Shown in pieces: positions 36,389 through 40,293 of a DNA stretch of 54,518 nt. A model generated the notes under the pieces. That model was not told where the DNA came from, made no database searches, and saw only the letters and a program-made list of their open reading frames with translations. The position numbers were made by a program, and so were the translations under genes. Numbering within the stretch: the first letter of the stretch is position 1; every line of letters begins with the position of its first letter. The DNA is taken from NCBI GenBank assembly GCA_005881885.1, contig VBDX01000147.1, positions 1-54,518 of the forward strand, in the 5' to 3' direction. This DNA is from Chloroflexota bacterium (GTDB lineage: Bacteria; Chloroflexota; Limnocylindria; P2-11E).

Positions 36389-37252
36389 CTACGCGACCAG
36401 CGTTCGAACGCGACGCTGGGCGGCGCGGACCGCGCCGCGCACGAACGGCCGCTCGTCCGTGGCAAGAAACTCGAGGATGTCGGGGGCGCGTAGAGCGAGG
36501 CGCGCGCCGCTCGCGGCCGAGAACGTCATCGCGACGTTCCAGCGCACGTTCTCGTCCTCATCCTTCATCCACGTCCGGAGCCGTGCGAGCGTCGCATCGG
36601 GATACGAGCGCACGAACTGATCGCCGAGCGCGAACGGCCCGAGGTTCTTGCGCACGTACTCCTCATGGTCGCGAAGGGCGGGCTCGATCAGCCCGAGCAG
36701 CGGCTCGGCCCACTCCTGACGCCGCGTCCGTGCCGCGTACTTGGCAGCCACCACCACCGCGCGCCTGAGGCGGCTGTCCGGCCCGCTCACCCACTCGCGG
36801 GCCAGAGGAAGCGTGTCCTCCCACGACTCGACGAGGAGGCGGCCCAGGAGCGCTGCGGCGGTCTCGCGCACCCCCCAGTCGTCGTCGCGCGCAAGGCGGT
36901 AGGCCATTCGCATGAGGTCGCGCGAATGACCCTGAATGAGCGGCGCGGCGATCAGCGCGGCGAGCTCCTTATCGACGCGCCGGGGATGGGCGATGAGGCG
37001 CTCAGCCCAGTTCAGCCGGACGATCGGCGCCGGTCCGATCCGGTCGATGATCTCGACCGCGCGGTCGAAGTTGTCCTTGCGGACCCAGCCGTTGATGCCG
37101 GACTTGCGAAGGGCGTCGGACGCTCCCAGCGGATCTCCCACTGCGAGAGAACGCTCGAACCGCTCCACCCACACCTCGTCCGGCGGCGGGTTCTCGGGGG
37201 CAGGGGCAGGGGTCCGTGGGCGCGAAGCGCTCGCCCCTCGGATCTGGGTCAC
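36389..37252 (-). CDS. HEAT-repeat protein, AlkD/DNA alkylation repair-like
   Basis: From GTG 37252, which overlaps the aminotransferase TGA (GTGA), the product has 287 residues. After a Pro-rich N-terminus (RGASASRPRTPAPAPE) it is all helical, with HEAT-type repeats such as DDDWGVRETAAALLGRLL, DSRLRRAVVVAAKYAAR, EYVRKNLGPFALG and DENVRWNVAMTFSAASG. The WGVRE and YVRKNLGPF blocks resemble DNA alkylation repair proteins (AlkC/AlkD group), which hold alkylated bases without flipping them. The similarity is suggestive, not proof; a general scaffold is the alternative. The N-terminal tail comes from a GC-rich repeat. Confidence 0.65.
   Translation of the reverse strand: MTQIRGASASRPRTPAPAPENPPPDEVWVERFERSLAVGDPLGASDALRKSGINGWVRKDNFDRAVEIIDRIGPAPIVRLNWAERLIAHPRRVDKELAALIAAPLIQGHSRDLMRMAYRLARDDDWGVRETAAALLGRLLVESWEDTLPLAREWVSGPDSRLRRAVVVAAKYAARTRRQEWAEPLLGLIEPALRDHEEYVRKNLGPFALGDQFVRSYPDATLARLRTWMKDEDENVRWNVAMTFSAASGARLALRAPDILEFLATDERPFVRGAVRAAQRRVRTLVA
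37209..37241. repeat. GC-rich palindrome at the start of the HEAT gene, family copy e
   Basis: GGGGTCCGTGGGCGCG-AAGCGC-TCGCCCC forms a GGGCG/CGCCC-type hairpin. On the coding strand it gives RGASASRPRTP directly after the start. A CAGGGGCAGGGG run beside it is shared with the gatC-gatA insertion. Confidence 0.6.
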
Positions 37253-38418
37253 GCTCGTCCGACGAAGCGTGCGATCCGGTCGCACGCCTCCTCGATCTTC
37301 TCGAGGCTGGTCGCATAACAGGCGCGCACGTGCCCTCGTCCCCGCTCCCCGAACGCGTTGCCGGGAACGGTGACGACCTTCTCTTCGACGAGGAGGCGCT
37401 CCGCGAACTCGTCGTCGCTCATGCCCGTCGAGGTGATGTTCGGGAAGCAGTAGAACGCGCCACGCGGCTCGAAGCATTGGAGGCCCATCTCATTGAACCG
37501 GCGCCACATCACCTTGCGGCGGCGGTCGTACTCGCCGACCATCCGTCGGACCTCGTCCTCGCCCGTCCGCAGCGCCTCGAGCGCCGCGTACTGCCCGGCG
37601 GTGGGCACGCACATCACCGTGTACTGGTGGACCTTCATCATCTGCTCGATGACCTCGGCCGGCGCGCAGGCATAGCCGACCCGCCAGCCCGTCATCGCGT
37701 ACGACTTCGAGAAGCCCGCGAGGTAGACGGTGCGCTCACGCATTCCCGGCAGCGAGATGATCGAGCGGTGCTCGCCGCCGTACACCAGGCGGTCGTAGAT
37801 CTCATCCGCGTAGACGAGGAGGTCGTGCTCCTCGGCGAGCCGGGCCAGTCCGTGCACATCGTCGTCGGTCAGCACGCCGCCGGTGGGGTTGTTCGGGAAC
37901 CCGAGCAGGATCGCGCGCGTCCGCGGTGTGATCGCGCGCTCGACGTCCTCCGGGCGTAGCCGGAACTCGTGCTCCTCCTCCGTCGCTACCGGCACCGGAA
38001 CGCCCCCGGCGAGCACGATCCCTGGCACGTACGCGACATACGAGGGGTCCGCGATGATCACCTCTTCGCCGTCATTCAGCGTCGCACGTAGCGCGAGGTC
38101 CACAGCCTCCGACACGCCGACGGTCACGAGGATTTCGCGGTCGGGGTCGTACGTGACGCCGCGAAGCCGCGCGGTGTGCTCGCTGATCGCCTGGCGCAGC
38201 GGCTGGATGCCGTAATTCGACGTGTACTTGGTCCGGCCCTCTTTGATCGAGCGGATCGCGGCCTCGCGGAAGCGCTCGGGAGTGACGAAGTCCGGTTCGC
38301 CGACCCCGAGCGAGATCACGCCCTCGACCCCCGACACAAGGTCGAAGAAGCGGCGGATACCGCTGGCCGGTATGCGCTCGACCTTCCTGTTGGTCAGCGG
38401 ACGTCCGGTGGCCTTCAT
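37249..38418 (-). CDS. PLP-dependent class I/II aminotransferase
   Basis: The product is 389 residues from ATG 38418, which overlaps the gatA TGA (ATGA). The fold-type I signature is complete: ISLGVGEPDFVTPE near the N-terminus, NYGIQPLRQAIS, GFPNNPTGG, the DEIYDRLVYGG block, and the PLP lysine in GFSKSYAMTGWRVGY. The final RACYATSLEKIEEA carries the substrate-carboxylate arginine. It fits the aspartate/aromatic aminotransferase group (AspC/PatA-like). The amino donor and acceptor are not certain. Its place inside the gat operon suggests a link to Glu/Gln or Asp/Asn supply, but that is inference. Confidence 0.93.
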   Translation of the reverse strand: MKATGRPLTNRKVERIPASGIRRFFDLVSGVEGVISLGVGEPDFVTPERFREAAIRSIKEGRTKYTSNYGIQPLRQAISEHTARLRGVTYDPDREILVTVGVSEAVDLALRATLNDGEEVIIADPSYVAYVPGIVLAGGVPVPVATEEEHEFRLRPEDVERAITPRTRAILLGFPNNPTGGVLTDDDVHGLARLAEEHDLLVYADEIYDRLVYGGEHRSIISLPGMRERTVYLAGFSKSYAMTGWRVGYACAPAEVIEQMMKVHQYTVMCVPTAGQYAALEALRTGEDEVRRMVGEYDRRRKVMWRRFNEMGLQCFEPRGAFYCFPNITSTGMSDDEFAERLLVEEKVVTVPGNAFGERGRGHVRACYATSLEKIEEACDRIARFVGRA

Positions 38419-39872
38419 GCCGCCTTCACCTCCGGTCGCGCGAGATGGTGTGGCGTGGCGCGCTCGTACGCCGCGGCGACGCGGAACATCGTGCGCTCCT
38501 GGTACGAGTTGGCGATGACTTGGAGGCCGACCGGTAATCCCTCGGAGAGCCCGCACGGTAGGGAGATGCCGGGGAGACCCGAGATGTTCACCGGGAGGGT
38601 GAAGATGTCGTTCAGGTACATCGCGAGCGGATCATTCACTTTCGCGCCGATTGCGAACGCAACGGTCGGCGACGTCGGCGTGACGAGCGCGTCAACCTCT
38701 TCGAAGACGCGGTCGTACTCCGCCTTGATCAGCGTGCGGACCTTCTGCGCCTTCACGTAGTACGCGTCGTAGTAGCCCGCCGAAAGCGCATACGTGCCGA
38801 GGATCATGCGGCGCTTCACCTCGGCCCCGAAGCCCTTGCCGCGCGTGCGTTTATAGGTCTCGAGGAGATTCGGCCCCTCGACGCGCAGGCCGTAGCGGAC
38901 GCCGTCGTACCGTGCGAGGTTCGACGATGCTTCCGCCGGCTGGATGATGTAGTAGACGGCGAGGCCGTGGTCGGTGAGCGAGAGCGAAACCTCCTCGAGC
39001 TTGGCGCCCTCGCGCTCGAGCACCGCGAGGGCCTCGCGGACCGCCCGCTCGACGCCCGGCTCCATGCCTTTGATGGAGAAGTACTCCTTCGGCACGCCGA
39101 GGCGCAGACCCTTCACGCCCTTCTCCAGATCGGTGCGCAGGTCATCGTTCGGGAAATCAGCGACCATCGTCGTGTCGTTCGGGTCCTTACCGAATATCGC
39201 CTCGCAGACGATGGCAGCGTCTTCGACCGTGTTCGTGAACGGTCCGACCTGATCGAGCGACGACGCGAAAGCGACGACGCCCCAGCGCGGCACGCGCCCG
39301 TACGTCGGCTTCATACCGACGACGCCGCAGAGCGCGGCCGGTTGCCGGATCGAGCCACCGGTATCGGTGCCCAGCGCAAAGAGCACCTCGCCGGCCGCGA
39401 CGGCGACCGCCGAACCGCCGGACGACCCGCCCGGTACGCGTTCGAGGCGCCAGGGGTTCTTGACCGGCCCGAAAGCGGAGTTCTCATTGGACGAACCCAT
39501 CGCGAATTCGTCGAGGTTGGTCTTCCCGATCATGACCGCGCCCCGCGAGTCGAGACGCTCCACGACCGTCGCGGAGTAGGGCGGAACGTACTGCTCAAGG
39601 ATCCGTGAGCCCGCGGTCGTCGGGATCGCCTTCGTCCCGATGATGTCTTTGCACGCCCACGGGATGCCGGTCAAGACGGGTGCACCGCCGGACTTGAGCA
39701 TCCCGTCCGCGGCGCCCGCCTGCGTGCGCGCGTGCTCGTCGCAGAGGTGCAGCCACGCGTTGTGGCGATCGGCGTGCGCGCGCGCGAGCGCGGCCTCGGC
39801 CAGCTCGACCGCGCTCGCCCGGCGTGAGCGCAGCAGCTCCGCCGCGTCGCGGATCGAACGCGGCAGCTCCAT
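38415..39872 (-). CDS. gatA: Asp-tRNA(Asn)/Glu-tRNA(Gln) amidotransferase subunit A
   Basis: GatA is the amidase subunit that frees ammonia from glutamine for GatB. The product has 485 residues from ATG 39872, behind AGGAAAGG. The amidase-signature Ser-cisSer-Lys triad is seen: Lys in PWACKDIIGTK, then GGSSGGSAVAVAAGEV and GTDTGGSIRQPA. YGRVPRWGVVAFASSLDQVGPF is the usual GatA block. Its ribosome site and start are a repeat of the gatC end (14-bp direct repeat), with 105 bp of extra sequence between them. Confidence 0.97.
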   Translation of the reverse strand: MELPRSIRDAAELLRSRRASAVELAEAALARAHADRHNAWLHLCDEHARTQAGAADGMLKSGGAPVLTGIPWACKDIIGTKAIPTTAGSRILEQYVPPYSATVVERLDSRGAVMIGKTNLDEFAMGSSNENSAFGPVKNPWRLERVPGGSSGGSAVAVAAGEVLFALGTDTGGSIRQPAALCGVVGMKPTYGRVPRWGVVAFASSLDQVGPFTNTVEDAAIVCEAIFGKDPNDTTMVADFPNDDLRTDLEKGVKGLRLGVPKEYFSIKGMEPGVERAVREALAVLEREGAKLEEVSLSLTDHGLAVYYIIQPAEASSNLARYDGVRYGLRVEGPNLLETYKRTRGKGFGAEVKRRMILGTYALSAGYYDAYYVKAQKVRTLIKAEYDRVFEEVDALVTPTSPTVAFAIGAKVNDPLAMYLNDIFTLPVNISGLPGISLPCGLSEGLPVGLQVIANSYQERTMFRVAAAYERATPHHLARPEVKAA

Positions 39873-40004
39873 CAAGGCCTTTCCTGATCAATCTCGCGGC
39901 CAGGGGCAGGGGCCCCTGGGCGCGTAGCGACCCGCGGAGACACGCCTGCGGCCGCGAGGACTCGCTCGTCGCGGGTGAACCGCTCCTCGCTCAAGGCCTT
40001 TCCT
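39872..40004. repeat. 105-bp insertion between gatC and gatA, flanked by 14-bp direct repeats
   Basis: TCAAGGCCTTTCCT occurs at 39872-39885 and again at 39991-40004. The 105 bp between them contain a perfect 9-bp inverted repeat (CTCGCGGCC at 39893-39901, GGCCGCGAG at 39950-39958) and palindrome copy f (39903-39937). Without the insertion and one repeat, the gatC stop and gatA start would overlap as TGATG. This looks like a small non-coding element with target duplication, or a slippage product. Confidence 0.7.
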
Positions 40005-40293
40005 CGAGCACCTGCTGCACGCGGAAGAACTCACCATCGCGGCCGCCGCGCGGCGCGTTGGCGAGGGCTTCGTCCACGGTGAGCCCCGGACGAGCTTCAT
40101 CTTCGCGCATAACATCCAAAACGGGCAGGACGGACGCGGTCGGCGACACCTTCTCCGTGTCGACGTCCTTCAGTCGCTCGACCGCCTGCAGCACGACCGA
40201 CAGCTGCCCGGTGAAACGCTCGACCTCTTCGGGAGTCAGCGCGATGCGCGCCAGTCCGGCGGCCTTTTCGACGACGGAACGATCGATGGCCAT
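39991..40293 (-). CDS. gatC: Asp-tRNA(Asn)/Glu-tRNA(Gln) amidotransferase subunit C
   Basis: GatC is the small subunit that stabilises the GatA-GatB complex. The 100-residue product has normal length and blocks: VEKAAGLARIALTPEEVERFTGQLSVVLQAVERL, then PVLDVMREDEARPGL and the C-terminal FFRVQQVLEER, where the family usually has FF-VPKVLE. It starts 9 bp after dgkA and precedes gatA. Its last codons lie in the 14-bp direct repeat. Confidence 0.95.
   Translation of the reverse strand: MAIDRSVVEKAAGLARIALTPEEVERFTGQLSVVLQAVERLKDVDTEKVSPTASVLPVLDVMREDEARPGLTVDEALANAPRGGRDGEFFRVQQVLEERP

Follow-up and report, generated by a model that had tools for sequence, protein, structure and literature searches.

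The junction between gatC and gatA in this 54,518-nucleotide stretch of Chloroflexota DNA (the window, meaning the whole stretch that was analyzed) raises the question of how two genes that abut or overlap in related genomes came to be parted by 105 bp, and how their operon could have survived the change. Both genes lie on the reverse strand, gatC at 39991-40293 (an open reading frame with 84 to 93% identity to gatC in same-genus genomes) and gatA at 38415-39872 (an open reading frame with 76% identity to gatA relatives from Chloroflexota MAGs), the latter starting with an ATG at 39872, with an alternative TTG at 39875 possible. An exact 14-mer, TCAAGGCCTTTCCT, stands at 39872-39885 and again at 39991-40004 and encloses the 105 bp at 39886-39990; the coordinates given in a preliminary description of this DNA were confirmed, with identity at 14 of 14 positions. 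Read in gene sense, the junction is ...GTGCTCGAGGAAAGGCCT-TGA-GCGAGGAGCGG...GAGATTGATC-AGGAAAGGCCTTG-ATG-GAG. The upstream duplicate (AGGAAAGGCCTTGA in gene sense; 39991-40004, reverse strand), which is a single copy in relatives, retains the gatC stop codon TGA at its end (39993-39991). The downstream duplicate (39872-39885, reverse strand), in which the A of TGA is common to the ATG, carries the Shine-Dalgarno-like AGGAAAGG ahead of gatA, as had been proposed. Removal of the 105 bp and one 14-mer gives CCTTGATGG, in which TGA and ATG have one base in common, also as claimed; relatives differ from this excised junction in having a 4-nt GTGA-type overlap and a GTG start.

The empty site by which the preliminary description had hoped to recognize an insertion was sought by searching 100 related genomes for gatC and then inspecting the junction. 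The gatC stop and gatA start abut or overlap in all 6 same-genus loci with both genes resolved, and the equivalent of the 14-mer is single in 6 of 6 readable same-genus relatives; the empty junction of L011 reads GTGCTGGAGGAAAGGCCG-TGACG-GAGCTG. The junction is likewise tight in the rest of the family, with the exception of a member of another genus (L026), in which the spacer of ~88 nt is a divergent copy of the three-hairpin element described below (E = 8e-6); the flanks of this copy are GGAGGAACGGTGA and GGAGGAAAGGTGA, and GGAGGAA(C/A)GGTGA is duplicated. Since this divergent copy has flanks of its own and the junction is empty in a genus-mate (L025), the gatC/gatA junction received two independent insertions. 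Two genomes from a different family within the class (L034 and L035, from G044 and G064) have gatC-gatA spacers that are ~200 nt long, have common CACCGGGGG...CTGTTA motifs, and are unrelated to the element.

The inserted sequence matches many dispersed places in its genome, with different flanks, as the preliminary description had suggested it might, and it resolves into two families. The first is an element of ~77 nt, in gene sense GAGCGA[C/G]GAGCGG-loop-CCGCGA[G/C]GAGCGAGNC..CCAGCCNTGAGCGTGTCTC-stem-GNA-stem-GAGATTGAGC, and the second, a 32-nt palindrome, is nested within one of the loops of the first. In the window, the element with its nested palindrome occupies 39886-39992 on the reverse strand (covariance model R1, E = 2e-11), and its 5' GA coincides with the final two bases of the 14-bp duplicate on the upstream side. 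Hairpin 1 (GAGCGAGGAGCGG-TTCAC-CCGCGACGAGCGA; 39962-39992, reverse strand), recognized by comparison across copies and by covariation, contains tandem G.A steps, and its pattern has a single match in the window versus 0 expected. The hairpin 2 region, GCC-GCA-GGC in this copy, lies at 39943-39963 on the same strand (helix 3 of the covariation analysis). Hairpin 3 (39893-39941, also on that strand; helix 4) runs from GTCTCCGCGG to CCGCGAG, with the nested palindrome in place of its loop, and is followed by ATTGATC. The palindromic repeat, CCAGGGGCAGGGGCCCCTGGGCGCGTAGCGAC (39900-39931), is a separate dispersed family, whose core occurs 28 times in the genome with at most 3 mismatches versus 2 occurrences of a reversed control; elsewhere it is nested in hairpin 1 (L160, L171, L150, and L165) or between hairpins (L163). 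The preliminary description was right about a nonautonomous insertion with a duplicated target but not about a single unit, the 105 bp being a repeat plus a nested palindrome. It had also pointed out a palindrome, which is present (39895-39907 and 39912-39924), and a 9-bp inverted repeat, which exists (CTCGCGGCC at 39893-39901 and GGCCGCGAG at 39950-39958) but fails as a terminal inverted repeat, the pair being internal and not conserved at the family ends.

Searched with a covariance model of the 77-nt repeat, the source genome yields 31 copies (E ≤ 0.1). At E ≤ 0.001, all 28 genomes of the family have copies, 1 to 38 each, and 73 other genomes in the same search yielded two single weak matches; of 301 evenly sampled Chloroflexota genomes, 8 were positive at E ≤ 1e-4, all within the family, as against 0 of the 293 others. 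Five copies stand in a ribosomal-protein stretch of ~16 kb (L204, G000:C152), about one-sixth of that genome's copies, and tandem copies with one duplicate between them occur at L220 and L150. An Rfam search gave no match even at E ≤ 1, the viral contigs contained no exact match of the hairpin 1 pattern, and no description of the element was found in the limited selection of open-access literature searched; insofar as that literature and Rfam show, the family has not been filed before.

Flanking direct repeats scoring at least 9 accompany 18 of 93 copies, versus 1.1 expected from mismatched flanks, and the 14/14 identity in the window is far above chance. Independent cases of duplication are the window, L228, L240/L247, L220, L261/L171, L151, L165, L160, and L223. 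Target duplication is a feature of the family at large, and the duplicated targets vary in length from about 7 to 21 bp (9 to 21 bp in the best ones) and mostly end in GA. Clear duplication is no longer visible in most copies, which we counted against a mobile repeat. Across 11 congeneric genomes, some ten junctions in the ribosomal operon are each filled in certain genomes and empty in others: the empty genomes have a short junction with the target in single copy, and the filled genomes have the target duplicated. AGGTCCT, for example, is duplicated in G005 only, and AGGAGCC(C/G)AAGT is duplicated in G005, G008, and G009.

These observations support the main reading of the preliminary description, insertion with target-site duplication, and we consider it very probable that a short nonautonomous mobile repeat was recently inserted here and that its arrival duplicated a stop codon and ribosome site. 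Such a repeat might be a classical MITE, consisting of the termini of a known insertion sequence whose DDE transposase moves them. Shortness, lack of coding capacity, dispersal, and target duplication would all suit a MITE, but the family consensus has ends (GAGCGA... and ...GATTGAGC) with no inverted-repeat relation, and the duplications are not fixed in length. Furthermore, IS4-type DDE proteins (DDE_Tnp_1, PF01609), the DDE family searched, were found in 0 of 11 genomes of the genus and were rejected as partners there. This version of the mobile repeat is unlikely.

A different explanation would be a resident structured RNA (a processing site, attenuator, or regulator) that is held in the operon by selection and does not move. 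The three hairpins covary strongly, in RNA or single-stranded DNA form. Of the cells in an alignment of 95 copies, 91.7% pair; both sides change in 14 of 17 pairs, and the covariation score is 0.223, compared with 0.095 after shuffling and no more than 0.072 after sliding. This alignment was fitted to the structure, but a MAFFT alignment of 13 copies agrees. Position 7/25 of hairpin 1, between tandem G.A steps, switches between C-G and G-C (47 versus 41 copies), and hairpin 3 has a GNA loop in 45 of 71 parsed copies. Folding one consensus-like copy as RNA did not reproduce the comparative structure, so the structure rests on covariation. A conserved internal reading frame was rejected, since 43 of 56 full-length copies have a stop in one frame and the frames shift with variable hairpin length.

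Position and orientation are also biased. The 93 aligned copies represent ~63 distinct sites, 61 of which have genes on both sides; 56 of these lie between codirectional genes (45 sense and 11 antisense, P = 5e-6), 5 between convergent genes, and 0 between divergent genes. Measured from the element start, the upstream stop falls at -6 to 15 nt in 34 of the 45 sense sites, and 24 of these 34 stops are TGA; measured from the element end, the downstream start falls at -6 to 30 nt in 34 of 45. Individual starts are approximate because genes were called by a simple codon-usage script, with the genes of the window as its training set. The bias in junction and orientation would be partly due to selection on survivors and partly due to target preference. 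Strong covariation and sense bias are what a resident RNA would display, and some sites are indeed common to several species (rpoA-rplQ in G000, G003, and G004). However, the gatC/gatA junction is without the element in every same-genus relative read, sites vary between species, the genes around copies are unrelated in content, Rfam is silent, and the structure may instead serve movement. We judge a resident RNA to be rather improbable.

If the segment is a mobile repeat, as we prefer, then it would presumably be moved by an enzyme acting in trans. One conceivable form is a bacterial SINE-like element, a structured RNA read in sense from operons and either retroposed at stop/ribosome-site junctions or placed there by an enzyme yet to be described; this would embrace both the variable-length duplications and genomes with no recognizable reverse transcriptase, Y1, or IS4-type transposases, and we give it a slim chance. 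The chance is very slim for strict retroposition of a structured RNA, SINE-like and target primed, by a reverse transcriptase in trans. Variable duplication length, structure on the sense strand, and some 5'-truncated copies (L059 and L168) fit such a process, as does a preference for A-R-G-W just downstream of the element's 3' end, which could mark a preferred target or be made up of the ribosome sites. Yet truncation may reflect later deletion, and hairpins that are rich in G.A or have GNA loops are stable in single-stranded DNA too. Reverse transcriptase (RVT_1, PF00078) was found in 1 of 28 family genomes and was rejected as a general partner, and the Y1 transposase (Y1_Tnp, PF01797; the RAYT domain) was found in 0 of 28, with control genomes positive, and RAYT was likewise rejected, all genomes being draft assemblies, in which transposons are under-represented. 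A tandem duplication arising locally in the stop/ribosome-site region, with later sequence drift, would yield flanks that form an exact direct repeat, but it cannot supply 105 bp matching dispersed repeats elsewhere, is refuted by the dispersed family, and has practically no probability.

Under the mobile-repeat reading, a staggered cut at insertion would duplicate a target of ~7 to 21 bp, typically one that starts with a Shine-Dalgarno-like A(A/G)G and extends to the upstream gene's stop codon. The upstream gene would keep this stop, where necessary with the element's 5' GA completing it after a target T, and the downstream gene would keep its ribosome site through the second duplicate. Because the duplication would span both stop and ribosome site, both genes, and an operon of overlapping genes with them, would survive; other outcomes of insertion would be removed by selection. 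The window copy would also have come to house the second, 32-nt palindromic repeat in its hairpin 3 loop. At three independent sites, the upstream TGA consists of a target T plus the element's 5' GA, and the downstream duplicate still has TAA or TAG: in G005/G008/G009 (AAG-TGA versus AAG-TAA or TAG), at L250 (versus TAA), and at L160 (versus TAG). Mobile DNA can thus enter tightly overlapping genes, even ribosomal-protein operons, and leave them unbroken, the duplicated target bringing a stop codon and ribosome site and the element bringing a GA that remakes a stop. Its filled and empty sites across congeneric genomes provide a testable system, and its mobilizer is absent from the enzyme classes searched (RVT_1, Y1_Tnp, and DDE_Tnp_1).

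Among known repeats, the nearest kinds are MIRU, for its stop/start target, and YPAL, for its variable-length duplications. MIRUs carry an open reading frame and, to our knowledge, have no dyad symmetry; they reportedly insert at DTGA stop/start sites in the direction of the genes, a finding attributed to Supply et al. 1997. The element resembles them in unit size (77 nt), intergenic position in operons, gene direction, and tandem copies, and its nearby upstream stops, mostly TGA, recall the reported target. It differs in that its three hairpins covary and it lacks a conserved open frame. MIRU units measure 40 to 100 bp (senX3-regX3 has units of 77 and 53 bp) and lie between the genes of operons, with tandem copies, and species without them have a junction of a few base pairs (PMC2734929, PMC4213456). 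YPAL/RU-2 of Yersinia is 168 bp long, a short repeat that is not A+T-rich, with internal inverted repeats and no TA ends; its target duplications, known from comparisons of empty and filled sites, are 3 to 26 bp, and its targets span or adjoin dyad symmetry (PMC2229807). The element is likewise short and not A+T-rich, lacks TA ends, and combines variable-length target duplication with internal inverted repeats and empty and filled sites, whereas it is 77 nt long, sits at stop/ribosome-site junctions, and is confined to one Chloroflexota family among the genomes searched, YPAL being enterobacterial. Since the element lacks a defining feature of MIRU and one of YPAL, we file it as neither. ERIC (IRU/RU-1) is also an interspersed structured repeat within operons, where it is cotranscribed and affects mRNA stability depending on orientation, but it is 127 bp long and has a terminal inverted repeat with TA at its ends (PMC2229807). 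REP/BIME sequences with their RAYT are similarly short, palindromic, and intergenic, unlike the element in that the 28 family genomes have no Y1 transposase and the element has target duplications. MITEs mobilized by DDE enzymes differ from it in the terminal inverted repeats and fixed duplication lengths already discussed.

Other repeats occur in these genomes. At stop/start junctions of the ribosomal operon, L271 (G002) and L275 (G003) have different structured inserts (TACTCCGTCCGGCC...GGACGGAGTA and ...GCGCCCTCCGTTGGAGGGACGCAGTA), probably another repeat family, and the same junctions have the three-hairpin element or nothing in other genomes. The window also has, at 37192-37229 and apparently within coding sequence, a degenerate palindromic repeat of the nested kind (87% over 38 bases). 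Finally, a longer repeat, GGCGGC(A/G)CCGAAACCCTCTCTAC..., with its GC-rich end matching in reverse, is found at positions 1350-1730 of both L005 and L008; it also houses the nested palindrome and represents a third dispersed family.
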